Origin: Echinostoma caproni
Lineage: Eukaryota; Platyhelminthes; Trematoda; Plagiorchiida; Echinostomatidae
NCBI GenBank assembly: GCA_900618425.1
Contig: UZAN01040585.1
Span: forward strand, 1-64,000
Length of the DNA stretch: 64,000 nt
Direction: 5' to 3'
Position 1 is the stretch's first letter; every line of letters begins with the position of its first letter. The notes beneath the pieces are model-generated. The model was not told where the DNA came from and did not search any database. It worked only from the letters and a program-made list of their open reading frames with translations. The position numbers and the translations under genes are program-made. This document shows, in pieces, positions 1,284 to 59,340 of the stretch.

Positions 1284-4200
1284 ATGGGTCCGGTACTCTG
1301 GTTCACCCTACTTCTGCTGTTTGATGGTACGTTACATATCAATTGATAAATATCCTATTTCAAACACACATTCAGTTGTAATTGTTGTTTGTTTCATTGG
1401 GTTTACATTTCATTTCAGATGTCTTCTCACAAGACGAAGAATGTTTAAAAAAAAGTTTCACTGCAACCGATGACTTTGAAACATACCAACTTAGTAAGGA
1501 AGGATCAAATATTCCATGCTTGTTGCAATTTGAATCAAACACAGCAATAAATCTCGAATTCACCAAATTCAAGGTGAGTGTATTTAAGCACTACTGATTT
1601 CGTCACCCAGTTCCCAAATACACCTTTACTCATATAAGCCACAACATAGTAATACGGCTCCATCACTTTTAATAATATTAAATGTTTAAGGAAAATAGAA
1701 TGTGGCACTTGTTTCGTGATCGATTGAATGCACAGGGAGAAGAATTTAGTTAAATTCCTAAACTTTAATGCTTTATATCCCATCAACAGTTCGGTGAGTC
1801 AGGTTCATGTGAAGAGAAACGCGTCGAAATCGGACTGGGCGAAGGAACTAATTCATTATCCGGGTTGAGGTTTTGCGGCGAACAGTTGCCGGTTGTGCCG
1901 CACTCTATCAATCAAAAGATGTATATCAAAATTCATGGTAAATTTGATACTGAAAAGGAAGAGTTGGAAGTGAAATACAAAACAGGTGAGAATTGGTGGC
2001 ATTTTCGAAAGTTGATGACCTCAGTTCTCATTCCAACTTTATACTTTGAACTGCACGATTTTATCTCAAATTAATTATTACTGAACGACGATTTATTTTA
2101 TCTCTCAAGCTACTCAATCACAGGAAACGCGCCATTGTGGTACAACTGTTCAACTTTTAAAGGACACTATGACAACATTTCCACCCCGCCATGAAAGGCT
2201 TCCAGCAAAATGTCAAGTAAAATACACTTTGACAGGTACAGGGGGAAACAGACCTTACTTGAAATTTAAATTCTTTAAAGTGAGTAAAAGCCCTTCGAAA
2301 AATGAATCATCCAATATGATTACAAGAACAATGTTCACTTTACTTCATAAATCGGAATTTGCCAAAATACTTTTCAGTTTCCATTTGAAAACGAGTGTTC
2401 CCAGAACTACATTGAAATAGAAAGCGAAAACAATCCAGCGAAAACCCAGGAAAAACTCTGTGGAAGTAAAACACCTTTTGACACGAAAACGACGGGATCA
2501 GAAATAAAGTTTACCATTACAACAAATGACCTACCATGGGGAAATATCATACAATTCGAAGCAAAAGAAGGTATGATGACCACAATTTTTCTGAAGGCGT
2601 AAACATACTGAACTCTGACTTGGGAAACAAACTAATGATTAGGCAATCGGAAATTCAGCAAACATGTACAAATAAGTTGCTATCCATGAAATGCAGTCCG
2701 CGTAGTTCAAAAATAATTTCTGATCCTTAAACGTATATCTTAGGGCAAAAATGAATAAATTCTCTATCTGAAGGTGTCCCGAAAGTCGAGTTATTCAGTC
2801 ACTGAGAAATAGGTTTGAACGTTTACAAATATTTTGCTAGACCGACTGAGAAAAACTCATTAGTAATTTTGAAAACAATCCAGAAACAAGAATCCATGCA
2901 AATAAAACGAAACAATGCTGAATCAGAAAACGAGCACTGGAACAAACGCTAGGATATCGAAACATTATTCTGCCTATAACCAAAAATGCAGCCACCACAG
3001 AAAATGATGTGCCCTGCTGTTGAGGTTTGAACAGATCCGGATATATATTTCATAGTATAGAGCATTTGTGTTCTATACAGTTTCATTTTAAATGTTGATC
3101 AGTAACAGTCGATTGATCGATCCTGTTCCCGTCGAAAACAACTTTCGCATTTCTCCCTAGACCCAGTCGAATATGTTCACAACTTAATCACAAGTAACAA
3201 TACCGCTTTTTTCAGTTATTCCTTTTACATGCGATAATAAACAGGATATCAGCAGCACGGAAAAAACAATCACAATACCAACAGAAGGCACATTCATTCC
3301 CAAGAATTTCAATTGTAATTACGAGATCATGGCCGGTGTGGGGACAAAGGTTTCCTTAAAATTCACTGAGTTCCAGGTAGACATATCTTTTGGTATTTTC
3401 ACTACCACGTTTGTTGAATGAAATGAGAACTCCAGATTATCAATTGAATTTTCTCTCGATTCCATTTACAGCTTTCGAAAACGGATGAATGTACGACAGA
3501 TTTCGTGAAAATCAGCCATACGGATCCAAAAACTGATGGGAACATTCGAGGCCAATGTGGTAGCGATGTGATCAATCCAAGAGTGGTGAATGCAAACAAA
3601 GCGTACCTGTACGTTATGATCCAGAATCCAACAGGTTCCGAGAAACTTTCTTTTCGGGCGAAACAGCGTGAGCTTCTTCATGTGTCATTGTCTTTATCAC
3701 CATTGTGATCACCGAAGTATGTACTGCTGGTGATGATGAGACTGGTTAAACTGAGTATCATAAAACATTAAGTAGTTTTCTTTATATGCACGAGAATCGC
3801 AAATTTGGTGATTTTTCAAACGAGAAATGGAAAAGACTATTCATTCGAAGGTCTACAGTATGAATGATAGAAGTGTCATGATGCTATCCATCGTTAACCG
3901 TCCTTATTATGCGATGTACTTCGACTTTTCCAGTTGCATTATTTCCATAATCGCCTGATATATGAAACCCAACGGTATCAACTTTTATTTTCAGTTTCAC
4001 CTCTGCAATGTACTGATGACATTTCACTGGAAGCAAAGGATAATCCAATCACAATTACCATACCATCAGAGGGGACATTCATTCCTGCGAATTTCAAGTG
4101 CTTGTATCTTTTCTCAACTAAGGCAGAATCGAAAGTTTCCTTGACATTTACTGAGTTCCAGGTATATACACAACATTTTTCAATATGATATATGTTAACC

Positions 4201-5399
4201 GAAGTAAGGCAGCAGTTTATTATTTAGATTGTAACCTGATTCCACCTTTCAGATTCCACAGAGTGAAAAGTGCACCGATGGTTACGTTAAAATTGGTGTA
4301 TCGCAGGCTGCGTTGGACACAGAAGAATCTCAAAGCTATTGTGAAAGCAATGCAATAGGTTCAAAAATCGTGGATGCCCCCGTAGCCTACGTTAGGGTTG
4401 TCATAAAGAATCCCGATGGTTTAGAAAAAATTACCATTTTGGCAGAAGAAAGTAAGGATGAATGTGATGCAGTGCTATTGAATACCCCAGTGAAATATTT
4501 TATCATACATGTGTGTTTCTGCATTTCTATAAACTCCTTATTTTTCTGCAAAATGTGTAGATATTATACAGCTTCTGAGAAGGTTTATTGCTCAAAAGAG
4601 AATGAGTTGCATAGAAGGATTTTAGTGTTTAGTTATTAATGCCTTACTATTATTCAACCTTTTCAATGTTATCCAAGCCTAATGACAGTTGAATGTTAAT
4701 CATTTTCCTCAGAACCTCCTCCTACATTATTTGTTTGCCCTGAAAAAATTTTGAACTCCACGGATAAATGGCAAACGGTCGAAGTGCCAGCTTCGGGTAC
4801 AATATTACCAAAATCCTTTTCCTGTGTATACATTTTTGATTCAAAAAAACATCATAATTTGGACATGAACTTCGTTTCCTTTCAGGTAATCCCTAATGGT
4901 CTAGACTATTCTAAGGTTGCTTTGTAATTATCATAGTTGTATCTGTTACGCCTCCAGTTAACATTCGCTTTTGATAATGCATGGATATTCTCTGTCGGTA
5001 AATTAGCTTGGAGAAGAAAATAACTGTTTGGATAAAGCTGTTTACGTTGGAGTGGACCCGATTCCCCTATATATGGAGAAGTATTGTGGGTCAAAGTTAC
5101 CGATGAATCGTTCTCGAAATTCCCGCGAATTATACCTAATAATGTCCGGAACGAATTTTGCACCTGAAGATAAATTTGTTTTGAAATACAAAGAAGGCGA
5201 GTTCCATTAGTGCAGTGTACTAGGAAGATGGCAAGATGTTAATAGTTATCTGCCTGTGTCTAATGAATCTCCCTAATACTACCTGTTAAAATGTCGTTGT
5301 TGAGTTGCAGATGGAAACCAAAGGCGGACCTGGAACCCCGTATTTTGCGTTTTGATTTATTTGGGATGGAAATCGTTCGCTGGAATAATCGGAAACTAA
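1284..5399 (+). CDS. Gene A: secreted/surface protein with five tandem CUB domains (12 exons)
   Basis: Exons: 1284-1326, 1419-1573, 1790-1985, 2110-2279, 2378-2570, 3216-3376, 3472-3667, 3995-4161, 4253-4451, 4713-4885, 5007-5196, 5311-5399; about 643 residues. Introns are GT-AG except the last, which looks GC-AG. Residues 1-14 are a signal peptide (MGPVLWFTLLLLFDG start). Five CUB domains follow at about 15-131, 132-252, 253-371, 372-493 and 494-614, each with four cysteines in CUB spacing and the conserved F-x-x-F strand just before the internal splice. Exon 12 gives a 29-residue, partly hydrophobic tail. CUB domains are extracellular beta-sandwich modules that bind proteins or glycans; no enzyme domain is present, so this is a binding or structural protein. 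The convergent paralog at 15827-20873 shares exon order and phases. I do not recognise a named ortholog. If the GC donor is not used, the protein ends at 5210 after four extra residues. Confidence 0.86.
1419..1985 (+). CDS. Gene A exons 2-3: CUB domain 1
   Basis: Exon 2 (1419-1573) carries cysteines 1 and 2 (EEC and IPC) and ends in LEFTKFK. Exon 3 (1790-1985) carries cysteines 3 and 4 (SGSC and RFCG) and ends in LEVKYKT. The motif FCGxxLPVVP and the strand MYIKI are shared with CUB 1 of gene B, about 24 of 48 residues being identical over the start of exon 3. This is one of the better conserved domain pairs of the two paralogs. Confidence 0.88.
2110..2570 (+). CDS. Gene A exons 4-5: CUB domain 2
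   Basis: Exon 4 (2110-2279) starts after ctctcaag and reads ATQSQETRHCG, with cysteines 1 and 2 and the strand LKFKFFK before the donor. Exon 5 (2378-2570) has cysteines 3 and 4 (NECS and KLCG) and the ending PWGNIIQFEAKE, matching PWGHMIQFVAEE at the same place in gene B. A second ag at 2122-2123 would break the frame and was not chosen. Confidence 0.87.
3216..3667 (+). CDS. Gene A exons 6-7: CUB domain 3
   Basis: It follows the longest intron of the gene (2571-3215). Exon 6 (3216-3376) reads VIPFTCDN and contains TEGTFIP and KVSLKFTEFQ. Exon 7 (3472-3667) holds cysteines 3 and 4 (DECT and GQCG) and ends in LSFRAKQ. The first half is closely similar to the first half of CUB 4 in the same gene, which suggests a recent internal duplication or gene conversion. 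Confidence 0.86.
3995..4451 (+). CDS. Gene A exons 8-9: CUB domain 4
   Basis: Exon 8 (3995-4161) reads LSPLQCTDD, then SEGTFIPANFKC and KVSLTFTEFQ. Exon 9 (4253-4451) has cysteines 3 and 4 (EKCT and SYCE) and ends in ITILAEE. The usual CG after the fourth cysteine is CE here. The domain resembles CUB 3 of this gene more than CUB 4 of gene B. Confidence 0.86.
4713..5196 (+). CDS. Gene A exons 10-11: CUB domain 5
   Basis: Exon 10 (4713-4885) opens with a proline run (KPPPTLFVC) and ends in MNFVSFQ. Exon 11 (5007-5196) has cysteines 3 and 4 (NNCL and KYCG) and ends in FVLKYKEG. With the GC donor at 5197-5198 it is 190 bases long, exactly the length of exon 11 in gene B, and it ends in the phase-1 position used by every other domain boundary of the gene. 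Confidence 0.84.
5311..5399 (+). CDS. Gene A exon 12: C-terminal hydrophobic tail
   Basis: After the acceptor gagttgcag, 89 bases encode 29 residues (start DGNQRRTWNP, hydrophobic centre VFCVLIYLGW, end AGIIGN) and a TAA stop. Gene B ends with an exon of nearly the same size (86 bases) in the same phase. It could be a GPI-anchor signal or a weak membrane segment. The exon is only reached if the GC donor at 5197 is used, so confidence is lower than for the rest of the gene. Confidence 0.62.
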
Positions 5400-5489
5400 G
5401 CAGAAGATGATACTATTTTCCCGGTATCTATAAGAAATGTGTTTCTATTTCAACCGTATTGCTTTCTTGAACATTTAAATTGATCTGGA

Positions 5490-5495
5490 AATAAA
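5490..5495 (+). terminator. Poly(A) signal of gene A
   Basis: AATAAA lies about 91 bases after the TAA stop of exon 12. It is the first canonical hexamer downstream and fits a short 3' UTR. Confidence 0.55.
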
Positions 5496-5859
5496 TGCAT
5501 GCGTCAGCAGAATTCATCAGTTTATGATATTGCAGGTGTAAGAGACTTAAAATGATGGAAAATATATAGTCCGGTGAAGAAGTACAAATTCATTCCAAGA
5601 CCAAACGAACAAAATATGCATAAGAATATTAAACTCTATATTTGTTCGAAAAGTTGCAACGCTTACACCACATAGCTTATAAAAGCATGTCATACTGAAT
5701 GTTGAAAACACATTTCGAAGAAGTACAAACGATCTAATTGGAGAACATGCCTAATTTATCAAATGTGTAGAACAAAAGCCAGAACGACCGAAACAGGTAA
5801 TAAGAGACAAAGTGAGAAATAACCACTGAAGGATACATAGATGAACAGTTAAGTAAATA

Positions 5860-6020
5860 TATTTATGGGTAGATGGATGTATACATAGATAGTTGGATAG
5901 AAAGAGGAATGTAAAAATGAATGGATAGATAGATAGACCGATCGTTCGATATATAGACCGATAGGTAGATACATGGATGTATATATATATATATATACAT
6001 ATATAAATATATATGAATAA
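5860..6020. repeat. (GATA)n / (TA)n microsatellite
   Basis: Imperfect GATA/TAGA units run into a TA tract at about 5980-5998. It is simple sequence; reading frames through it give only Ile/Tyr-rich junk. Confidence 0.85.
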
Positions 6021-9000
6021 ATCAGACAAATATATAAATTAAGGAAATTATTTCATCACTGGATAAGGCATTATGAAGGAGGAAGAACAGTTTGCGGAAA
6101 CTATTATATCAGGATATAAAAAGTCGGTTCTAGTCTGGGAGACGGGGAAAATCGTAACATTTAAGCAAAGATGAAGTCCATTTGAGTGAGAACGACAAAA
6201 CAAATTATTGACTGTAGCCAAAATCATTCAGCTACTTGAATAGGTACTAGTACGTGTTGTCATTGAATAATATTGTGCATACATTTTCTCTAAATAATTT
6301 CAATAGTTCAAGTGTAATGATCATTGCAGAAAAAGGATGTTTCCCGTTTTCTTCTCAGTTGCGTACATGCGGTCATATAAAACTTTTATCAAAGCAATGA
6401 TTAGCCTTTTTATACCACAGCATTCACCTAGACAAACTTAAGGAGAACGTCAAATGTAAACAGCCACAGTTGGGTTATGTCCGGAAAATGTTTGGGGAAA
6501 ACTTATGAGTGGGATCTTAGTGACAGCATCTAAATTGGCAAGGTAAAACTAATCAAGATGTCAAAACCACCTGAAACACCCATTCTTCTATCGGCATTCG
6601 ATGGAGACTGCTGTTATGTTTTGATAATAAATGTTCAAAAAAGTAGTTTTAAACAGATTTCTCGAACACGACTTTTTTAAAGAGGTATTTGTGGATATAA
6701 TTTGAGTGATATTTCAAACAATCAATTAATCAACCAAGCGTAGGAATCATAAGTTTCAATCGAGTTTGAGTTAACTTCTTGGGTCAACCAATCACAAGCA
6801 TTGGACATAATAATTGAAATAAAGTTTACGTCAATGTTTTGGTGCCTATGGAACGGTTTATTCCAGGTTTGTTTTAATTTTCTTACATTTTGCATTTCTA
6901 TTCATGTAATTTGTGTAAGCTTACATGCTTACATCTCAGTTAAAAATGTACACTGTTCGTCACGTGGAATGAAATATGCATATACAAATATCATGCGAGG
7001 TAAAGAATGGCATGCAGTTTGGTTCATTTACAACACTTTTGAAGTAATTTATTTGCTACCTGTTCCTTTGCGGTTAGGAGTCGGGCCAGATAGGGTACGG
7101 GGGAATTTTTGTAAATGTTAATGCGTGAGGGTAGATTCCGGAAATGATGAGCTGGTGGACAGGTGGGAAACGATAAACAGACTAATCGAGATGCAATGGA
7201 TAGAGAGAGTCATCCAGAATCTTCTTCGCAAATGTAACACAAGAGTTGATGCGACCAAAAATGAGTTCTGTGATTAGTGACACGATCAGGATTAATGATG
7301 CACGACTGGATTGCCTTGTATGATGGCCGGTCTAAAGATTTGGGCTTCTACTTCATATGTATTTTCATATTAGCATGCAAATTATGGGTCATTGTTAACT
7401 GAAAATAGCACATTTTGAGCCACATCGCAGCCTTAATCACCACAGCCGGTAGTTTTGTAAATTAATTTACAGCTGTTGCCTACAAAAAAATAATTTCAAG
7501 TGTTTATGAGGTAAATGTTTCCCTTCTTTAACAAAAAGTCCAAACTCATGCATAATTTTAGGCAATCATGGTCACTGAATGGAAAAAAAACACTGTTCTG
7601 TCCACAATTATAGGGAGATATAATTGAAAATGAGACTAAAAGAAGTGAAAATTCCTTTTGCGCAATGCATCTATTCTTATTTGTATGCTTAGGATTCATC
7701 TACTAGTAACTGTGACCTAATCCTGGAATTGCAATTCCACGGAAAAATCTGTCGTGAAATATTTTTGTAGTTGTTTACTCACGGCGACCCATTCAGCAGT
7801 AAACATTTACCGGTATATGATATAAATTTGTCCTGTGGATATAAGCATGCATACATGTGTTTGCTATTGTGCTAAGACGTAATTCTGAACAGTGGTCACT
7901 TTGATGAAAGAAACTATTGCTTCAGCTCCGTCATTCTTCACTGGAGGAAGCCTTGAAGTAAACACTGAGAAAAGCGTGAATTGTTAAATCATGTTCTTCT
8001 GAACGAATTTTACCGCTACACTTAGGTAAGCATATGATTGCGCTGTACAACCAGGGAGTTTTTCGCAGACCAGTGGAATGCTTGGCAAAAGTGACAGTAT
8101 TGGAGGATTTCATTCGAAGTCCGTGCTGTATACAGAACTCGAGCGTGAGCTGAAAGGACAAAACCACGGAACAGCAGTTTGGACTACTTTGGATCTAAGC
8201 TGGAATGTAAATCCTTCGATCGAACCCAGGTTGAATGCTACCGTATTACCCACTTTCCCACCGTCTTATCAGACCGCTTTTGTTTTACATAAACGCCATA
8301 TAACACAATCTTTTGTCAACCTAATGGGGGCATTATACCTAGCCTACCTCCACAGTGAGCTGCAAGGTTATAGATCGATGCGATTTGAATAACATTTAGT
8401 GTTCGTCCTCATCGAATTGTAGAGATTCAATCAATTAACAAAATTAAATTTTATTAATTAAATTTTCGTAACCGTTCTTCAGGACTTCCAGTAAGGATAT
8501 AATTCGGTTGATAATATATAAAACGAATGGGGATCAGTAAGTAGATCGAAAGTTTTATATAAAAGAAGGTGAAATGTGAGTCACGATTAGTACTTGTACG
8601 TTCAAGGAACTAACTCCTGTATGACTGCAAATCAGATACGGAACCGCCTAATTCCTGTGAAAGCTGTTGAGCCAGTGTAAATCCATTTCGATGCATGCTA
8701 CAGTGATCTTATACCTAAATTTTTCATATAAAACCGGATCGCGGAGATTTGAGTAATTAGTCGGTTGACGCAGAGCCCCCAATTCAAACGAGGTGTTTGG
8801 GTAACACTGGTTCGATAAATTAGTCAACAATATACTAAGTTCAAATCTGAATCACTGCAGAAGATGAACATACTATACATGTTGATGCAGCATAGTTAAG
8901 TCAGTTAAAGGAATTGCTTAGCACATCTAAAAGGGTGAATAGTCAGCAACCGTCTAGTCACAAGTAATGTGATACTGTCAGTACTTCCATGTTATGCACT

Positions 9001-10810
9001 CGGAGTGACTATATTTTGCATGTGCACGGGTGAGGGGGGGGGAGAGTTAACTAGGAAAACGGCCGCGCTATAGACTCAATATTATTCTCAGATCTACTTT
9101 GCAACGATTTCACAGCAATTATGGTGTTGCATAAAAAGCTGTTCTTTGCTTTCTTGATGTAATTAGATGTCAAATGTCATTGATCTGTGATCATTGATCG
9201 GTGAATCCATTGTGTTTAGATTTAGTCCGCCGGGTATGTTATGCCGTCAGGGTTCAAAGATCCCCGGAATTATTCCTTGCTATCATAAATGGGTTCCATT
9301 TCCCACCCAGAATATGACAGTGATGTTTTCCAGTTTTCTAAAACTCTAAAGTTACCACGGAGTCGGACAGACTTTTGAATTCTGTAAGGGGAGTATCAGG
9401 GGTTGACCAACGTATAACGCCCGTTGTTTGATTTTTCATCAGCCAGGTAGTCTTCCAACTTGCGTAGTAGAATTTCCGACGGCTCACTTCGTAGGTCGGA
9501 GGAGCTACTTAAAATCAGCAGTGGTAGCGGTGATAGTTTTCAATTCGCTGGTCATATCTACCCATTATAATTTATTATCGGTCGTGGAACAGTGAGTCGT
9601 GTCTCCTCAGGATATAAGAATATTGCACCCTTGGCTCTGTAATGAAGTGACATTGATTTCCGATTATCAATTCCTGACTTGTAGGAGTGTTTGCTTCAGT
9701 TTCTCCATTAAAGCCGCTTCTATGGAATTTTCAATCTTGTACTTTGTCTATCTTCATACTATTCCACTGGAGCATTCGGATTTGAATATACAGAAGTAGT
9801 AGTTGAGAGCACTCCTACTTGCTATGGGGCGTATAAGTTTTATTACAGATCTTTCCCGAGTGTGACGCATTTTATGTTAGGCTACCTAGTGAGCTAACAC
9901 GTACGGTTTACGGTATTAGTCGCTGTGTCACACTATTCATGATAGTACTTGTCCATGATGTCCACAATGATCGTGTGAGCTTGCTGTTGATGTTGCTCAC
10001 CTGTTTGCTGATAATAAGATATCATACCTGGGTACGTTTATGTTTGCAAATATGATCAAAGGTTTCCCGTTGAGCCATCGGTAATCAACGTCGAATTTCC
10101 TCAGTTGATCTTTCGTAATTGCTTGTTTTACGGTCTAATGTGTATATTGAAATGGTGAAACAGGAGAAAGATATCACCTGTTGGTGTTGGTGAGTTCTCC
10201 AAGCACGAAGTGTTGTTCGCAGACGTTTCGTAGCCAAGCTAGGCAAAATCATCCGTGTAACTGCGAGGAAGTGCCAATTCCCAGTGGGATATGGTTTATA
10301 TAGTTCTCTTTGAGGGTTACGATTGACTGCTTGCGTCCCTTTAATCTTATTGGTCAATAGCAAACGACTGCTGTGATTTGATTGGCTGTTCCGCTGTCAT
10401 GGCAACTATCTTTTTTCTTGCCAATTGTACTTTTGCATCGGTTGGTTTCGATTCCATATATCTCTTAATTTGGTGAGAGAAGAATACTTCCTACAAGAGA
10501 ACGCAGTGAGTAGGGCTTCCTTAGAAAAGGCTATTTGAAGCGTTTGCAAGATGCATTTGACAGAACAAAAAGGTGATATCTTTGAAATGATGTGAAATGA
10601 TTGTAGCTCGGGAAACGGAAACGGGAAACCAAAAGTAGGCTAGCCGAATGGTGTGCTTGTGAACTTTTCAGTAAAATTCACCTGCTCTACTCTGGGTAAC
10701 CGGACAGTATTCGGACTACATGTAAATCATGGAGCGTTTTTCTTTGTTATGAAGATTATTGTGAAAGGATTCTTTTGGCAGACAATCTAGCCTCAGAGTT
10801 ACGTGAAGTG
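6021..10810. other. Unassigned intergenic stretch
   Basis: No gene is supported. Several open frames of 60-106 codons occur (for example 6801-7121 and 8078-8392 on +), but they show no recognisable family motif, splice-flanked pattern or signal peptide context. A run of nine or ten G bases is at about 9036-9046. Confidence 0.5.
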
Positions 10811-10814
10811 TGAA

Positions 10815-10887
10815 TATGTATATACGTATATGTACATGCATATATATGTATATATTTATAAATAAACATATATACATATGCAAATAT

Positions 10888-10930
<43 letters not shown>
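10815..10930. repeat. AT-rich microsatellite
   Basis: TATATG/TACATA units grade into a pure AT tract at about 10893-10928. Confidence 0.88.
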
Positions 10931-10931
<1 letters not shown>

Positions 10932-12995
10932 CTTATAGCTACCGAAAACGATAGCGTTTCCTACCAGCAAGATTTTTTCTATCGAGTGGGATGAGTTGAG
11001 TTCTTAAGATAACATCGTTTGAAACGTGCCACAGGGATTATCGGGCTACAATGGTTTAGACGCAGTCCGAGACTTCTCACCCATTTTCATGGCAGAACGA
11101 TACCCCAAGTAGATCGAAATAGTTTATGGGCTCCCACTGGTTTAGATGATTGACCACATTGGTGAGGATCACTCAAATTTGCTGTGCTATATGATTGAAT
11201 AAATTCGTAGGCAATATCAATGCTGTAAGTGTGTAGCCTGTTCGTGCCGATGACTTGTTTCTGACCANCATTAAGAGTTTCTGACATTTCAAATAGTGAC
11301 GTCAGTACGTCATCCTGGATTCATTCGAATCGCTTCTTTTTGTCGCCCCGGCGACTGGAAGAGCTTACGGCTTGCCACCTCTCGGGAGTATCGCGTAATG
11401 GCTGAGAAATCTATTCGTGTGAAGGTGCATCTCTGGCCTTCAACAGGTGGGCGCTGTCTCTCAAGCAAGATGATGAAAGTTATGGTCTTATTTTGTAGCG
11501 GAATGCATTCACTGACTTCGGGACGCTGCCACAGTACGTTATGGTGTTTATGAATCTCTTGCAAGAGTAGTACTCACAAAATCCTCATGTACTGCAGCTG
11601 ATCATATGCAACTGTCCATATGATGGAACAATTTCATCATATTCACTGGTGACCTTCTAAATGGTCATTTTTACATTCCTAACACGGAAAGTCTTCCAGT
11701 ATCTTACAGCTCCCTTGGCAGTGGTAGTATATTGGCCTAAACCCTTTGGGATATTATGTTCAATTCTACAGTTTTTTAACACGAATTCACCAATATTCTC
11801 CTAAACGGTTTGGTCAATAATGATAAATGAATCAAACCCAGGGACAGAATAGTGGGTTGCATCATACTTTGCAGATTATGTTCGTCCGAAAGTACACAAA
11901 AGTACTGTTTACTACGGTAGAAGGAAGATCATTGGTTAACCATTGAAGTATAATATTAGGTTTTGAAAATATGACTGTTTCACAAAAGGTATTTTGACCT
12001 GACTGCTATGGCATATCACCAAGAAACTGTATCAGCAGTTAGGCACAAACCCTCTTACATTTTTATTTAAGTTTTACACCTGAGTCTGAAAGAAAATGCC
12101 CCTATATCTGCTACCTCTTGGTAAATTTCTTTTGTGCTTGCACTGATATATCGAGCTTTAATACACAAATCTTGGAACAAAATACAATTATATTGTTTGT
12201 AAGCATGCATGAGTTCTTATTAGTTGCCGTCACTAGGTACATTTTATTCATTTGATTAGGTGGGTTCTTCATAACATGTGGTATCCCACTGGAAAATCAT
12301 CAGGGAGAAGTGGGCGTTGGCAATTCAAGTTATGAATCTATACCGAAATTTAGCCACAAACGATTCGTGAGGGAGACTATTTCCAGCTAAGTTACCTAGA
12401 TTACCTGAATATTCTTATCAGGGTTCAAATTTATTAGTTACAGAATGCTTTGAAATTGTGGCTGTTCCATCGTTAAGCTAGCCTTAATGCTTATTGATGC
12501 AGGAGGAATCACTAATATATGATTGATTCGCTTAATGCTTTTCCTTTAATAACATCGTCTCACAACTCACTGGTTAGGCTTTATTGGCAAGAGGTGTGTC
12601 CAGTGATGAGATATAAGGCCAAATAAAAGACAATTCTTGTAAGTTGCCGAAGGTGGGCTTCATCTGATCTAACTGCAGACAATCTTTGATATAACAATTT
12701 GTGTAAGATGGGTGTTGAAAGTTGGAAAGTAGTAACAAATGTCCGTACCACTTTCTGTTACAGCAGAGTGTATAGCTCGATGCACAAAAAACAGATAAAG
12801 AATTAGAAATAAGACTTGCATACAGTTGTACTGTATACAGTTATTGTTTTATCAAAAAGCCAGCCCCTTGGAGAGATTTTGTTCTTAATTGATTATCTAT
12901 TCTTTTCTTTTGGATGGTTAAAGCCTGCAGCGATTGCAATTCATTATCGCATTGAACTAACGGTGCCCGACGTGTTAGTTATTCTTTTTTCTTTT
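10931..12995. other. Unassigned intergenic stretch
   Basis: A slightly GC-richer segment at 11290-11565 is open on both strands (about 85 codons each) but shows no family motif I can name. It may be a repeat remnant. There is a single N at 11268. Otherwise nothing is seen. Confidence 0.4.
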
Positions 12996-12999
12996 TGTT

Positions 13000-13178
13000 T
13001 TTTACCTCCTTTTATTGAATACACTGTGACACAACTTTCAGGAAGATAGAAGCGACCAATCAAAGGGTTGCCATACAACACACAATTGGGGAAAGTCAGA
13101 CAGTGGTCTTGGGATTCGAACACACGTCCACCGGGGTGGTAATTTGGCGACGTTACCACCAGACCACCACTAAATTGT
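13000..13178 (-). mobile_element. tRNA-derived SINE family 2, copy 1
   Basis: On the - strand the head reads like a tRNA: an A-box-like segment (tggtctggtggtaacg) from about 13170, then a B-box-like TTCGAATCCC near 13111-13120. The body runs through a segment containing gaccaatcaaag (written on +) to a 3' end with ttcaataaaagg. A similar unit is at 33419-33598, which proves dispersal. No terminal duplication was identified by eye. Confidence 0.7.
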
Positions 13179-14450
13179 GTTTCAGAAACGATCATTCTAT
13201 GATCTTGAGAAAAAAAACAGTGAATGGACTGATGGGCGACCATAACACTAAGATGAACAAACGCGGTCGTCACAATCACAATTTTGGTGCGCTCATTTCG
13301 ATCATGAGGATAAAAGCGATTACCTAACGTCCACCTCAAAATCATCAGTTATGATTGGTGCACTCCATATGTGACATCACCCTCAGTCACTAAATCAAGC
13401 TAGGACAACCAAATATTGAATGCAGGCCGATATCATACTGCCTGAATTTAGGCAAAATAAGGAACCTCAGTACCTCCTGTTTTCAGCAGCAACCATTCAG
13501 TCAGACTGGGGTCGTTCAAAGGCATGTCCCCAACGCAAATCATTTGATGGACTGTTGGTTTGGGGGAAAGGAGAAATAATCAACACTTGCTAAACACAGA
13601 TACCCTTGATTGATGTCTTCCAGTCATATCAAATACTACTATTGTTCACTTTCAAAGAGGAATAATAAATAAATTTAAGACAACCTGACAGGCTTACAAG
13701 TAAAGAAAATAAAAGTGAGTTTTCAAAATTTGTATTCACTTTGAGTTGCATCATTTTACCTACTTAGCAACCCACCATGTTTGACTATATTCTTACTACC
13801 AGTAAAGTACACCAAATGAAGTTATTCAGCAAGAACATTGAACCTAACCGTTGCAGAATGGTATGAACTCTATCCAATAAAAATGATAAAATTTACAGTT
13901 GCATTCACAGTTGTCCTTAACATTACCGGATTAACACCGCCATGTCTTACCTCACGCATTTTACTAACCCGTACAAAACAGCGGCGAGCCATGAAGAGTA
14001 TCGCGGTGAATTCACATCAATTCGGCTGTATGTGGTTTGTTGTTTCATACTTCTAAAACAGTTAAACAGTGCGTTAACTTATTTCATTACTGATCCGTAG
14101 CATATTTTTCTAGATTGACTGACCGTTTGTCTTTCATAGTCTTGCTACGACGATTTGGTGATATTTCCTATCCATCTCCAAAACCTAAATCTCAGGTATA
14201 ATATCAACTGGATTCCCGAGTGTGTGAAGTTCAAAATGGATCTACACATGAGGATTTTATTGTTTTATTGGACTGGAGTGTGGAACACATTGTCCCAGGC
14301 ATACGGTAACCTCACTAACAGACCTCATACTGTTAGTCAAGGTTACCGAGCACTTTTAATTACTGACTGGTCTTTTAGCTGATGCATTGAACGTCGTACA
14401 CCTCAACATTTCTGAGGTGCGTGATCGTGGGAAAAAAATACTGTTGAGAA
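13179..14450. other. Unassigned intergenic stretch
   Basis: Nothing is recognised. Short open frames at 13838-14056 and 14155-14382 on + lack family motifs. The second runs up to the LINE fragment that follows and could be part of it. Confidence 0.4.
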
Positions 14451-14830
14451 CCCTAAAACCATGGAACTCATGGATTTGTGCAGGTTTGAATAGAAGACTA
14501 ACTACCACGGGAGTTCCAGTTTCTGAGTGACTAACTGGTCCTATCTACGCGGAATGAGTAACCAGCGGTACGTGTGTAGTCCTCATCTTTTCCAATTTCT
14601 GTACACGACCTAGGCAATGTTCTGAAGCCATTAAATTTCATGTTCACAGATGATACAAATATATAAAACACATTGAAGTAATTCAACGATTTACTGACAC
14701 TTCAGATAACTCCCATTTTCACATTGATGTCAAATTTTCTACATCAAAATGTGCAGCGGTATACTTTTGCCCCAAACATTCTGGAAGGTAACAGCTTCCA
14801 TATGCCTCGACTGAGAAGGACCATGATTTC
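14451..14830 (+). mobile_element. Decayed non-LTR retrotransposon reverse transcriptase fragment
   Basis: Shifted frames spell parts of a LINE reverse transcriptase: VTSG (start of the usual VTSGVPQGS block) at about 14559, then a block like HDLGNVLKPLNFMFTDDTNI, where FTDD is the degenerate catalytic FADD, and then TSKCAAVYFCP of the next conserved block. Frameshifts and stops show that it is dead. It seems different in sequence from the LINE copies at 34, 49 and 59 kb. Confidence 0.6.
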
Positions 14831-15700
14831 ATCATTTAAGAAAACCCAAGTTTGTTTTAAACCAGGGCATCAGCTAAAGCTCTAAGATATTTCGATTATT
14901 TGAAGCGACTTTTGGAGAATTTAAACCACTACTACTATCGGCCAACATTCGACTCTACATGGAGTGTGTAAGATAACTATGGAATCCATAGGTGCGATCT
15001 GATCACAAGAGCTTGTATGTATTTGTATGCATATATTTGCATAATGAAACTTTGTATTTTGCACCTGTAAGCGGGAAAACGTTATTTTCTGTCACCCATA
15101 TATCTCGCAGCACAAAATTACTTTTCCGTATCGCCCTGTCCACTTGTAAAACCTTTTCACCCAGATTATTCTTGCCTGCTAAATTAAGCAAATAGCAGCA
15201 AAGATCCGTATATAGGCATACGTATGATTAATTTACGGGATTATGACTTTTTACATTAAATAACACAATATAGATTTGCTTTATTAACTCCTTTGAACGT
15301 ATATTTACGGTCTAAACGATTTGTTTTATGTAGTCCATTCACTGACATTTGAATTCTCAGAAACATGTAACTCAAACCCTTTTGCTTAACGTTCAGCATT
15401 CAGTTGAGTCCTCCTTCACGTACACATATTCTATGCTACTGAACGTTTGTTAAATGTTTTTATCAAGTTGTTCCGCATACTTCTACCCCTAATTGTGTTT
15501 GTTTTTTCCGTTTTTTATACATCGTCATCCTATGTTTCCCTCTTATAGTTTCTCTGGTTCGAAACATTCTGGCTATCATGAGGCGTTTCTTATTCAATGA
15601 TTTGTTACATTCCGCTTGTTTCGTTGTGCAATTCTTGTTCAGTATGTTTCGTCATTTAAGTTGCTTTGCCGGAATTCATAGTAAAAATGGTTTTGGCTCA
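14831..15700. other. Unassigned stretch before the gene B 3' end
   Basis: Nothing is recognised. It is T-rich and could include minor extensions of the LINE fossil. Confidence 0.4.
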
Positions 15701-15707
15701 TTCTAAT

Positions 15708-15713
15708 TTTATT
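15708..15713 (-). terminator. Poly(A) signal of gene B
   Basis: AATAAA on the - strand, about 114 bases after the TAA stop of gene B. Confidence 0.55.
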
Positions 15714-15826
15714 AAATAGAGAAAATATTGTCAATTATTCGCACAGTTACAGCAATACAAATGTGCATGTTTGGAATACTGCCATCGTCCGTTTTCTAAG
15801 TCATACATTTTATCCACCAGTTTGTA

Positions 15827-15912
15827 TTAACAAATCAGTCGTATTCCTAGCAGTGTAATTATGGACACTACCGTGGTAATCGTTGGTAGTTTTGCAGCAC
15901 CTACGTCTGGGT
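15827..15912 (-). CDS. Gene B exon 12: hydrophobic C-terminal tail
   Basis: 86 bases after the acceptor ctctttctcaag encode DPDVGAAKLPTITTVV and then SIITLLGIRLIC, followed by TAA. A short polar linker followed by a hydrophobic end is the layout of GPI-anchor signals. The run is short for a transmembrane helix. Confidence 0.75.
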
Positions 15913-18900
15913 CTTGAGAAAGAGTGGAATAATATTTATGATCACCACTAAAACAGTTCATATAAATGAAGAAAGTCATGCCGAAAAAGATGTTGAATCA
16001 CTGTAAACCTACCGGACAAATAGGTTATTGTAAATCCATCTTTCGGGGAAAATCGTGTTCCTATAATCTTAATGTAGATCTCCGTTCTGTTTTTCAGGTA
16101 CCTCCTGTGAATGGGCATCCCGCATAGCTTCATAGATTTTTCTTCAACGGGTTCTTCACCGGCGTACACTTGGTTAACAGCACATTGCTCCCTTGTGCCA
16201 AGCTTGAAGAGATAAATGTGTCACATTGCAGAATGGTTTGATTTGTCATTTCTTATCAATAAGCCTATATTAAAAGTCTTATGTATATTATCCATTTTAT
16301 AATTATAGGCAGAATAAACACCTTACAATTAGATGACATGGGTTCATAAGATTTTGGTCAATGTGTAATTCTCATCTAACACCTGAATTCTATATTCTAT
16401 TGGATTACTCTAATTATTCTCCACTGGTGAACGTTGAATAACATTAGCTATTTTTCTGGCCATCGAAAGGTTATATGATATATCTTCATCACTAAAACCC
16501 GCAAAAATCTTACCTCTAAACTGGTTAGTTCCCAAGACAACTTTCTATTGGCTGGGCTTCTCAACAAGTAATAACAGTTAAACCGTTCAGGTAAAATTGT
16601 TTCCGAGCTCGGAATTTGCAGTATTTGTTTTACATCCGATGAGACATATGAACGAAAGTCGCATACTGTAAAGGGCTTCGGCGCTTCAACTTTTTCAGGA
16701 AAAATGGGAAAATAAAATTTATTTAATTTGAAACACTGAGAATCACGTTATACTTTTTGGGCCGATTACCTAGTGAATAACTTTGTAGCGACTAAGCAGA
16801 GATAGCAAACCATTTATGAGTTAAAGAGTACCAAACTTGAAAATACAAGGCATTAATCATCACAAGTAACTTCATTTCGGATACATCATTTAATAGAAAA
16901 TTTTCGAAAATCACACTCAGGGAGCGAATTGCTGACAACATTCAACCGATAATAAACGAATGTGGAATTAACTTGGTTACTCATTCTTACCTTCTGTTGC
17001 CACAAATTCAATTATATTTCCTTCCATGGAATTGTCAAAATAAATCTTTATTTTAATTGTGTGCGTAATATATAGTTTGGTACTCGGTTTCTGTGTACCA
17101 CAATACCTTTTGGTCATAGCACCTCCTCCGACAACTTGTAAATAACTGTCATTACAGTTATTAATCGACCCTATCTACAAGTAAGAACGAATAAGATTTG
17201 TTTTAGATTTCGTGCCATTACATGGCCATGAACGCTTATATTTACTAAGATTCTCACCTTGAATTCGGTAAATGCCAAATGGAGAGTTTTCTCTTTGGAT
17301 GCTTTTAGAGTAAATTCACAGAACGTTTTGTCTGGGATAAATTTATAAAGCCCCGGTAGTGTGACCGTTTTTCCCGTAGAAGGAATGTCTATATCCTCCG
17401 AACATTTTATCGGTACCACTTAAAAGTGTTGCAGAAATTGAACGAAATATACGTAAATTAACAGATCAATCTTTGCAGTGACGGTAAAATACAAATTGAT
17501 GATAAGAATTTCGACATTAACTTTGAGAGGAGGAGGAATGGACTTTGTGTATAACACAGGTTTGATCTATGGAATACTAATACTAGATAACCCAATCTTA
17601 AATGGAAATCAAAGAACAACAACGAACGATTCACATTTTTGAATTCCACATCCAAAAAGCGTACCTTCTTTAACTGTAAATGAAACTTCATCGGAGTTTA
17701 GCGGGTTGGGTATGAACACGTTAACAAAAATCGTTGATTGTGAATATATGCTGATTCTAGGCTTTCTTCCACTGCAGTACTTCTTTCCAGAATTCATGGA
17801 AAAGTCTTCACCAAGTCCAATTTCGACGAAACTTTCTTGGCATTGTGCGCTGGCTCGTAGCTGTACCGTGGGAATTCAATTCAAATCAACAATAAAATTG
17901 TTTATTTTATTGATTTTGAGATTTTAAGGACTCGTACATAGTGTTTTATGTAAATGTATATATATATATATGCATATATTTTCTTACCGAAAAACGCTGA
18001 AACTTGAGAGCGATGCCCGCACCCTCAGAAGCTTTGATGACGTAAACGCACGCGTAATTTGTAGGGATGATATGATCCTCTCCCGGCAGATCAACTAACG
18101 TTTCAGCCGGGCTTGCCTGTAGATTTTTCTGACAGGTCACTGGTGTCAGTGGTTCAACTTAAATGGAGTGAATAGGCAAAACTTAAGGCACTCAGGTGTT
18201 CGCTCTTATTTTCATGGATTTGACCTATTGATTCTTTTTGTCATTAGCATTTGTGATTCAACGAACATTACACGACAGTCTACGGTGCACATCACAATTT
18301 TCATACAATCAATAACCGCTAGTTCGACGTGTATCATCTTTATTTAATCTTCGTCTGAAGTTGGTGATATTTATTTATAATGTCTCATCAATGTTTTCAC
18401 TGAGTATCATGTATTCACATTTTAACAAGTGATCAGTGAATCCACTCGGCGAGCAAGACCCACAGTGAGAAGATCTATGCGGCCAGAGGTGCATTTATGT
18501 GGTGTACTGCCTCTTTAAATAATTCCTCGAACCTTGACAATGACTGAGTACTTGGTTGGAGAAGACCATTTCCGTGAATTGCGTTGTCACAATGATGGGT
18601 AAGCCAACAAATCACCAGTGTTGTTCAGTTACCGTCTGACCATACTCACACCTTGGGAAATTTCAATGAGTAACTGTGTAACGAGCTGGATGCATATCCT
18701 GATAGTTGCTATGTGCCTTAGTGTTACTCAGTAAAACAATTATAAATGAAAGAATAGAATAAGTTGATGTTCAGTTGTTCGACGTGGTTGGCAAACAACT
18801 GAATATCAAGTTACACTACCCGAGCTACAAAAAAAATCAACACCGTCGTTTGCAAACTAACACAATAGAATAGGTTTTAAAACAATTGAGTTGAGCATAA

Positions 18901-20873
18901 AACAGCATGAAAGAAAAGTAAAAAGCTACGGGACATGCAGAACTGATATGAAATTCTCACGGAATATCTTTATTATTGATCAACTGTCTAGGTGAGTCCG
19001 AAATCTTTCCGGTCATCCACATCTAACCTGAGAACTTGAAGTTGTGACTCATGTACAGGAAAATAGCAGGATAATTTGCAAAACCTTTATACATCTATTT
19101 CACTGCATCCGTGCTCATACAAACCACACACGAATGAAACATACTTTCTTCTGCCACAAACTGAATCATGTGGCCCCAGGGAAAATTCATAAGTTTTGTT
19201 TTTAAGAACAGTTCTTTTCCAGAAGATTTCTTTTGCTTCGGCATACTTGAACCACAAATTTTTTCTTGATCCGAAAGCGAAGCGCTCAAACTACCTAATT
19301 GTACGTAGGTTTCAGTACACGCAGTTGATGTGGGAAGCTAAAATTCGGAAGAATCGGTAAAATTAGTCAAACGTTATCCGTTTCAGTTTTAATCAGTGAA
19401 TCATATTTCGTTAATTATTATTTAGAAAGTGTATTGCTTACACGAAAAGTAATGAATCTCAATTTGACCCGTTTTTCATTCCCGGCAGTCATTGAAAATG
19501 TTGTTTCGCATGGAGTGGTTAGCTTCTTTTCAAGCGGAGGCCATGTTGTGATTTGACCCAGCACGACAGTTTTTGTAGAAAGACAAGATTGTTCATTTGG
19601 TTTTGAAACTAAATGTTAGAAAACGAAAAAGATATCAAGTGTTAGGAGGTCAAATATAATCAGGCAACTTGGTTTTTGAATATTCGGTTTTAACGGATGA
19701 TTAAAGCTTTTACAGAATATTCTTTTCAAGGGGTTTACCTTGAACATACTCCAGCTGAAAGCTTTCGTTCGTGATCTCCGACGTTTTGCGGATTTTTATG
19801 TACATCTCTGCTCCTGTTGATGGCGGTACCACCGGCAAGCCCTGACCACAAAACTTTATCTCGGGTGCTGGTGTGACTCCATCACCGATTCCGATTTCAA
19901 TGTAATTTCCAGTGCATTCGCTTGATTCACCAAACTGTACAGTAAAACATTAGAATATTGTAACAGAGACAGCAATTTTAGCTTGACAGGCCAGTTTTCA
20001 TTTACCGTGATTCACCATCTTCGAAAGTGATTTACTACGGTGTGCAACGTCTGCCTTGATATTAAAATTATTCGCATAGAAGGCAAAATGCGAACGTAGT
20101 CCTGACAAAAGTAATCCACCTTCTGGTTTCATTTATAAGTCGAATTTAGAAAAAATGTAATTTAGTACTCAATTCAATAGTATGAAAAAGCATTCTCTGA
20201 GTCACAAGGTAATTAATCTAATCATTCAAAAATAAAGGTTAATGACCTGTTCGACTTAACTTCCAATGAAACGGATTTTGTATAATTTGACACAATAAGA
20301 TAACTTTCAAGATAAGTAGATGTGTTTTCTTCTGGAACACTGCGAGTGCACTTATTTGATAGAGATAAAATAAAATCTAGTCAAATTAGCCAATCCACGT
20401 TCTGGTAAATTGTGCACGTTAAATATTATAAATGATCTGACTGCAAAATACTTTTAGAAATCATTGCTTTTAATTATCAATTCCATATTGGAGATTCTTT
20501 GGGTTGTACTACACACTTAATTAAATATCAATCAGACAAACCTGGAACTTCGTAAACGTCAGTTGTACCGCTGATGTCGCAGTAAACTTCAAGGTACAAG
20601 GGACTGGTCCGTTTTCCGGAGGGAACTTGAACGTAGCCGTTGTATCATTTACCTCGAGATTTAAAGTGCATTTGATTCCATCACTAGAGGCTCCTGAAGT
20701 AAAAAATAATCAAATGGAAATTTTGCACGATGTTAGTTGAATCAGCTAATTAGTATGAATGATGATAAACGATCACATATTTAATCCGTTGTCTTATCAA
20801 ACCATTTTTAGGTCGGAGGCCACTTACGTTGATGACAAGTAACAACAATGAGAACGAAGCTTAGCAGCCTCAT
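15827..20873 (-). CDS. Gene B: secreted/GPI-anchored-like protein with five tandem CUB domains (12 exons)
   Basis: Exons in transcript order: 20873-20828, 20693-20542, 19934-19739, 19608-19442, 19337-19145, 18157-17988, 17860-17665, 17418-17258, 17174-16991, 16689-16514, 16202-16013, 15912-15827; about 638 residues, all introns GT-AG. Residues 1-15 start a signal peptide (MRLLSFVLIVVTCHQ). CUB domains lie at about 16-131, 132-251, 252-373, 374-488 and 489-610, each with four cysteines. The last exon encodes a 28-residue tail with a hydrophobic run (TTVVSIITLLGI) that looks like a GPI-attachment signal or short membrane segment. Collinear in exon order and phase with gene A, which faces it from 1284-5399. 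The protein presumably sits on or leaves the cell surface and binds a protein or glycan. No catalytic domain and no named ortholog are recognised. Confidence 0.88.
16013..16689 (-). CDS. Gene B exons 10-11: CUB domain 5
   Basis: Exon 10 (16689-16514) reads VEAPKPFTVCD, with its second cysteine in RFNCYY and the ending WELTSLE. Exon 11 (16202-16013, 190 bases) has EQCA and KLCG and ends in FTITYLSG. The donor is GTAGGT. Confidence 0.85.
16991..17418 (-). CDS. Gene B exons 8-9: CUB domain 4
   Basis: Exon 8 (17418-17258) reads VVPIKCSED, with the second cysteine in KTFCEF and the ending LAFTEFK. Exon 9 (17174-16991) has NNCN and RYCG and ends in IIEFVATEG. The second half is about 5 residues shorter than in CUB 4 of gene A and little conserved with it. 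Confidence 0.86.
17665..18157 (-). CDS. Gene B exons 6-7: CUB domain 3
   Basis: Exon 6 (18157-17988) reads IEPLTPVTCQ, then NYACVYVI and LKFQRFS. Exon 7 (17860-17665) has AQCQ and KYCS, then IPNPLNSDEVSFTVKEG, which parallels IQNPTGSEKLSF in CUB 3 of gene A. Confidence 0.87.
19145..19608 (-). CDS. Gene B exons 4-5: CUB domain 2
   Basis: Exon 4 (19608-19442) reads VSKPNEQSCLS, with the second cysteine in TTPCETTF and the ending LRFITFR. Exon 5 (19337-19145) has TACT and KICG and ends in PWGHMIQFVAEE, shared with CUB 2 of gene A. Confidence 0.88.
19739..20693 (-). CDS. Gene B exons 2-3: CUB domain 1
   Basis: Exon 2 (20693-20542) reads ASSDGIKCT, with the second cysteine in PVPCTLKF and the ending LTFTKFQ. 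Exon 3 (19934-19739) has SSECT and KFCG, then LPVVPP and MYIKI. It is the domain most similar to its counterpart in gene A. Confidence 0.88.
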
Positions 20874-33635: not shown

Positions 33636-33830
33636 GGCAGGAAATGTTTGTGGTAACCAACAAAGAGCACTGGACAGCTGCTTCGTCCTGTTTGGGACTC
33701 GTCATCGGTGCGTACATTTTGTGTCCCTGTCAGGACTCGAACGGCGATTCTTCGGGTGGGACTTCGAACCCTTACCTTTGAGCAACATGGTCGACGGTTA
33801 TCATCTTGTGTAAATGGCTTAATCAATTAT
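33636..33830 (-). mobile_element. tRNA-derived SINE family 1, copy 1
   Basis: About 195 bases shared with 59150-59340. Reading on -, the head is at about 33830, with a tRNA-like A-box region, B-box-like GTTCGAGTCC and then cctgacagggacacaaaatg. The tail ends near cacaaacatttcc. Head-to-head with the next copy. Confidence 0.72.
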
Positions 33831-33889: not shown

Positions 33890-34070
33890 ATTGCGATGTG
33901 GGTTTCATTCCAAACGTTCGCGGTTCGAGTCCTGACAGGGACACAAAATGTACGCGCTGCTGACGAGTCCCAAACAGGATGAAGCAGCTGTCCAGTGCTC
34001 TTTGTTGGTTTTCACAAACATTTCCATCGCATTTGAATGCATTACCTCGTGAGGAGCAAAACCCACACCC
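33890..34070 (+). mobile_element. tRNA-derived SINE family 1, copy 2
   Basis: A perfect B box (ggttcgagtcc) is at 33922-33932, followed by the family body (tgacagggacacaaaatgta, then caaacaggatgaagcagctg) and tail. The A-box half is diverged or truncated. Confidence 0.72.
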
Positions 34071-59149: not shown

Positions 59150-59340
59150 GATGAGATGGAAATGTTTGTGATAACCAACAAAGAGCACTGGACAGCTCCT
59201 TCTTCCTGTTTGGGACACGTCAGCAGTGCGTACATTTTGTGTCCCTGTCAGGACTCGTGTCGCAAACAGTCGGATCGAGACTTCAAACCCTTACCCATGA
59301 GCTACACGGCCGACGGTCATCACCTCGTGTGAATGGCCCA
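59150..59340 (-). mobile_element. tRNA-derived SINE family 1, copy 4
   Basis: The clearest copy. Reading on -, the head has the A-box-like gtgtagctcatgggtaagg, then the B-box-like acacgagtcctg, then the family body and a tail ending cacaaacatttcc. It abuts the 3' side of the LINE fragment above it. Confidence 0.78.

Follow-up and report, generated by a model that had tools for sequence, protein, structure and literature searches.

The first 64,000 nucleotides (forward strand) of contig UZAN01040585.1 from the trematode Echinostoma caproni (assembly GCA_900618425.1), the stretch referred to here as the window, contain two genes, termed A and B, that are each predicted to encode five CUB domains. 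Judged from their sequences, A and B are old paralogues, and, far from standing alone, they form one branch of an as yet unnamed family of many genes. We consider it likely that this family is made up of CUB-only extracellular proteins that bind ligands at a surface and are either secreted or attached by a glycosylphosphatidylinositol (GPI) anchor, with A and B as an old pair within it.

Gene models and domain content

Both genes were rebuilt from the letters of the window via open reading frames and splice sites, and each has 12 exons. Gene A occupies 1284-5399 on the forward strand, starts with an ATG at 1284 and would encode 643 amino acids if its tail exon is spliced as proposed. Gene B occupies 20873-15827 on the reverse strand, with its ATG at 20873, and encodes 638 amino acids. 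Exon lengths run 43, 155, 196, 170, 193, 161, 196, 167, 199, 173, 190 and 89 nucleotides in A and 46, 152, 196, 167, 193, 170, 196, 161, 184, 176, 190 and 86 in B, corresponding exons being equal or near equal. The series of intron phases, 1-0-1-0 and so on to a final 1, is identical in the two genes, with a phase-0 intron cutting every CUB domain and a phase-1 intron lying between successive CUBs. The matching phases had been proposed in a first-pass annotation of this DNA and are confirmed across all 12 exons of each gene. The introns of B are GT-AG without exception (11/11), and those of A comprise ten GT-AG and one GC-AG, the last.

Exon 1 provides a start codon and a signal-peptide-like start in both genes, MGPVLWFTLLLLF... 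in A (1284-1326, forward; peak hydrophobicity 2.7 over 10 residues) and MRLLSFVLIVVT... in B (20828-20873, reverse; 3.0 over 10 residues). The following ten exons pair up into five CUB domains, placed by the gene models and by Pfam scans of single units. On the forward strand, gene A has CUB1 at 1419-1985 (exons 1419-1573 and 1790-1985), CUB2 at 2110-2570 (2110-2279 and 2378-2570), CUB3 at 3216-3667 (3216-3376 and 3472-3667), CUB4 at 3995-4451 (3995-4161 and 4253-4451) and CUB5 at 4713-5196 (4713-4885 and 5007-5196, with the GC donor at its end). On the reverse strand, gene B has CUB1 at 19739-20693 (exons 20693-20542 and 19934-19739), CUB2 at 19145-19608 (19608-19442 and 19337-19145), CUB3 at 17665-18157 (18157-17988 and 17860-17665), CUB4 at 16991-17418 (17418-17258 and 17174-16991) and CUB5 at 16013-16689 (16689-16514 and 16202-16013). 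A last small exon closes gene B at 15827-15912 (reverse), encoding DPDVGAAKLPTITTVVSIITLLGIRLIC followed by a stop, a sequence that resembles a GPI-anchor signal and has no cytoplasmic tail. The counterpart proposed for A at 5311-5399 (forward) would encode 29 amino acids and is weakly supported. Of the plan first ascribed to both genes, the signal-like exon 1 and the ten exons for five CUBs therefore stand in each, and the part that falters is the tail exon of A, with its GC donor and chance-level hydrophobicity.

The Pfam CUB model (PF00431) scores 135.2 bits over protein A (E = 1.5e-39) and 151.6 bits over protein B (E = 1.2e-44), in five stretches each and against a cut-off of 21.4, and by these whole-protein scores the five-CUB content of the pair is far beyond chance. 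Scanned singly, with E ≤ 1 as the limit, all ten units were matched by CUB, the best at 7.4e-12; an individual bit score is given for unit A1 alone (29.1 bits, with the same cut-off). Four cysteines are present in each of the ten units. A profile built from the ten A and B units, which matches them by construction, recovers the 20 exons at E ≤ 2e-11 among open stretches of the window of at least 25 amino acids, the next best match being at 0.7. No domain other than CUB lies above the Pfam cut-off in either protein, and both the five CUBs and the CUB-only composition, for which the first-pass annotation had suggested a Pfam check, are borne out by it.

Paralogy of A and B within a multigene family

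The genome searched comprises 426.5 Mb in 12,689 contigs, among which the window sits on C1640 (75,029 bases). It contains a single match to the trematode eggshell synthesis family PF08034 (30.4 bits against a cut-off of 24), in keeping with a trematode origin. Outside its own gene, B has two A exons as its best matches and A has three B exons, and it is only at lower ranks that exons from other contigs are mixed in. In a tree of CUB1 plus CUB2, A and B form one clade against eight other family genes or gene pieces, with support of 100/100; two of the 12 named rows in this tree were dropped (C1065x and C5495m, which are without CUB1 or CUB2 exons), and a further two (C1522z and C1065y) fill less than half of the columns. 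Overall identity between A and B is 29% and their third codon positions agree at 24-37%, and for these reasons the duplication is taken to be old.

Unit by unit, A pairs with B at CUB1 (score 206), CUB2 (190) and CUB5 (190). The middle of the gene behaves differently, as A CUB3 and A CUB4 share 44% identity (score 221), compared with 28% (150) for A3-B3 and 26% (114) for A4-B4. This suggests that the middle of A was homogenised or re-duplicated after the two genes split. The collinearity first described for the pair consequently holds for CUB1, CUB2 and CUB5 and breaks down at CUB3 and CUB4, where A3 and A4 are nearest to each other. The likeness across 3216-4451 can be seen as a trace of gene conversion or of internal duplication. 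In a tree of the exons coding the C-terminal halves of the domains (C-half exons), A1 and B1 pair at 0.93, A2 and B2 pair at only 0.48, and A5 groups at 0.94 with B5 and an exon from contig C1104.

To find relatives of the pair, profiles of the N-half and of the C-half exons were run over 16 stretches of up to 10 kb around A/B matches, splice sites being required. The same split exons were found on C3072, C6825, C8598, C5495, C1065, C1522, C7026, C3096 and C7755, to which further searches added C1148, and with the single C-half exon of C1104 at least eleven contigs beyond the window's own carry family genes or pieces, in varied orientations; these counts are lower bounds, as the genome search scores best candidates only. 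The gene on C3072 has five CUBs and the same exon plan as A and B. Two family genes are present on each of C5495 and C1065. Family exons were not found in two of the 16 stretches (L043 and L044), and C3493 and C11396 gave weak matches only (E of 0.2 to 0.9). An exon-by-exon Pfam CUB search of the genome returned 21 matches, none of them in the window, and mostly missed the family because half-domain exons score too low. In the C-half tree the exons of the other genes group by position (0.95 for CUB1, 0.98 for CUB2), which suggests from the exon sequences that the genes of that branch inherited the five-CUB plan from their common ancestor; support is poor for several inner branches of the exon trees. 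The idea that A and B are an isolated CUB-only oddity has therefore been abandoned, as the same split-exon plan recurs in several further genes of this genome.

Three of these loci have features of their own. The C1104 exon (C1104:40001-50000, L042, at 5125-5329 on the reverse strand) codes for half of a last CUB, stands by itself and groups with A5 and B5; a search of 20 kb revealed no other part of its gene. On C7755 (10001-20000, L041), positions 4923-9061 hold three successive CUBs, and the C-half exons of the first and second are identical, either through recent duplication or as an assembly artefact. Family exons of both strands are interleaved over about 25 kb of C1522 (40755-65216), which could represent rearranged genes, pseudogene pieces or misassembly.

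A and B stand tail-to-tail, 10.4 kb apart, and the first-pass annotation had put this down to an inverted gene duplication. The paralogy on which that proposal depends is well founded, given the 100/100 clade and the mutual top matches. Inversion as the origin of the arrangement is a plausible reading of the sequences which one genome cannot decide, in view of the low identity and of relatives that lie in varied orientations. Elsewhere, family genes share a strand (C1065), diverge (C5495) or occupy both strands (C1522), and the tail-to-tail order could thus be later than the duplication itself. The pair may even have come about when two members of the family were inserted or rearranged independently, the present order being accidental or secondary. 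Such an origin, with which the 29% identity and the nearness of the C1104 exon to B5 would agree, appears somewhat doubtful to us, since A and B form a clade against eight other genes, are top matches of each other, and have the spacing that a local duplication would give.

Proposed binding mode and anchoring, and the rest of the window

CUB domains of the C1s type use Glu45, Asp53 and Asp98 as calcium ligands. In CUB1 of C1s itself, Glu45 and Asp98 contact a lysine of the ligand, whereas the calcium site requires Asp53 (PMC4222235). When these positions were placed in A and B through profile alignments to cubilin and PCPE-1, Glu45 was present in none of the ten units, Asp53 in one and Asp98 in one, and no unit has all three. 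The same is seen across 41 distinct C-half family exons, those of A and B included, where the Glu45 position is never Glu (Gly in 19, Pro in 10), the Asp53 position is Asp in six and the two residues never occur together; this count follows the exon register, in which three of the 41 are without the early cysteine and misplaced ends or inserts may shift the reading. By comparison, an exon of classical CUB type elsewhere in the genome (L002, on contig C441) has E and D at the Glu45 and Asp53 positions. Clusters of such classical exons lie apart from the five-CUB family, on C441 (16357-38682, reverse strand) and on C4234. With another residue at the Glu45 position in all family exons examined, the family CUBs should not bind ligands in the manner of C1s.

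At the C-terminus, the tail of B is better supported and the tail exon of A is weak. Hydrophobicity of the B tail is 2.42, and values of at least 2.3 are reached by 4.1% (29/703) of donor-like points elsewhere in the window, a control that was set up after the pattern had been seen. Hydrophobic terminal-exon candidates of that strength occur within 260 bases after five of ten last-CUB exons (B, C5495, C7026, C7755 and C1104), taking as last-CUB exon the last one found, and after none of 23 internal exons. With a signal-like start and a hydrophobic C-terminus lacking a cytoplasmic tail, B is a candidate GPI-anchored protein. In A, exon 11 ends at a GC donor (the exon closing with GAAG and the intron opening with gcgagt), and, if left unspliced, it would add four residues before an in-frame stop at 5208-5210.

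From these features the following picture can be drawn. Each protein would enter the secretory pathway, and its five disulphide-bonded CUB modules would together form a rod. The hydrophobic last exon of B would serve as the signal for a GPI anchor holding that protein at the outer membrane, and A would be tethered likewise through use of the GC-AG intron, or secreted free if exon 11 runs to its own stop. The rods would bind protein ligands at the parasite surface, be it tegument, gut or larval, and would do so without the calcium-dependent mode of C1s-type CUBs, given the replaced Glu45 position. The wide divergence between copies suggests that different family members bind different ligands. 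As a tentative extension, for which our confidence is low, the family may have evolved and expanded in trematodes as GPI-anchored or secreted five-CUB rods that have lost the calcium switch, giving a diverse set of surface proteins where parasite meets host; the window genes, perhaps together with the C1104 gene, would be one early branch of it that evolves separately.

Several results weigh against the view of A and B as an old pair of secreted or GPI-anchored surface proteins. In the C-half tree the C1104 exon lies nearer to B5 than A5 does (0.87, within the group at 0.94), such that a third gene on C1104 may be B's nearer kin; this exon slightly lowers our confidence in that view, which we still regard as likely. 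A2 and B2 are not paired in the N-half exon tree. No strong tail candidate follows the remaining five last-CUB exons (A, C3072, C1065, the second one of C7026, and C3096). The tail of A has a hydrophobicity of 1.64, and values of at least 1.6 are reached by 25% of the 703 control points. The GPI anchor of B, although probable, is read from hydrophobicity. Finally, a protein homologue search with B yielded 6763 candidates, none at E ≤ 0.001, in a collection presumed to be mainly prokaryotic and metagenomic.

The state of the A tail raises the question of whether one copy, A being the likeliest, is decaying or gives rise to a shortened secreted form. Its GC donor, the early in-frame stop after exon 11 and the chance-level hydrophobicity would all fit, though we think this unlikely, as the reading frame is open through all other A exons, their splice sites are good, the CUB cysteines are preserved, and GC-AG introns are a normal minor class.

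Elsewhere in the window, 34 stop-to-stop frames of at least 90 amino acids lie to the right of 20,900, and none of the 20 tested contains a Pfam domain above cut-off. An Rfam scan gave only three matches at gathering scores, all of them type I hammerhead ribozymes, at 33667-33711 (reverse), 33954-33998 (forward) and 59185-59229 (reverse). The first two fall within 108-base inverted arms (33640-33747 and 33918-34025) that are 94% complementary. Schistosomes are known for type I hammerhead elements of this kind.

Comparison with known CUB proteins

Among solved structures, the nearest to A and B by sequence are the CUB domains of cubilin, followed by PCPE-1, NETO2, the MASPs and the neuropilins. 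Cubilin (PDB 3kq4) has tandem CUBs in common with the pair and is the best match (E = 3.5e-39 over four CUBs), and its name is in use in fluke papers, from which it might be supposed that A and B are pieces of cubilin, or nearly related to it, and act as nutrient-uptake receptors. Cubilin, whose partner is amnionless/megalin, consists however of EGF repeats followed by 27 CUBs and includes CUBs of the calcium type, whereas in A and B there are only five CUBs, Pfam finds no EGF repeat, the Glu45 position is never Glu and no unit has the Glu45/Asp53/Asp98 set. Their gene models are moreover complete, with start codon, signal-like start and stop codon, and CUB exons of the classical kind exist elsewhere in the genome, on C441 and C4234. 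A cubilin identity in this sense is, in our judgement, improbable. CUB sequence matches to A and B are also found in procollagen C-proteinase enhancer, NETO, neuropilin and C1r/C1s/MASP, in which CUBs are combined with netrin, LDLa, coagulation-factor, EGF or protease domains; unlike these, A and B have no second kind of Pfam domain above cut-off.

The closest parallels in trematodes come from Fasciola, where the cubilin family is present in the secretions of juveniles (PMC5013449), the four tegument proteins common to all secretome fractions include a cubilin-like one (PMC9143473), cubilin-related genes are the most represented among unigenes upregulated in miracidia (PMC6790025) and CUB-domain proteins occur in vesicles of eggs and juveniles (PMC9203882); PMC7653818 and PMC10114103 likewise refer to cubilin or a cubilin-like protein. 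Like the predicted A and B proteins, these are CUB-bearing extracellular proteins of a trematode, and they are reported from surface, secretions and vesicles. The likeness is one of description, as the passages cited give neither a domain plan nor an exon plan nor the name of a family, and a five-CUB trematode family is not named in the titles or abstract openings among the matches listed. It is possible that the Fasciola proteins belong to the A/B family, which we offer as a lead. In those same passages the 'cubilin-like' and CUB-domain proteins of larvae, tegument and secretions are tied to no gene family of their own. A definition at the level of exons, namely five CUBs, split exons, a replaced Glu45 and a hydrophobic tail, would allow the family to be annotated across flukes, and would argue against carrying over to it, by name, the nutrient-uptake role of cubilin.

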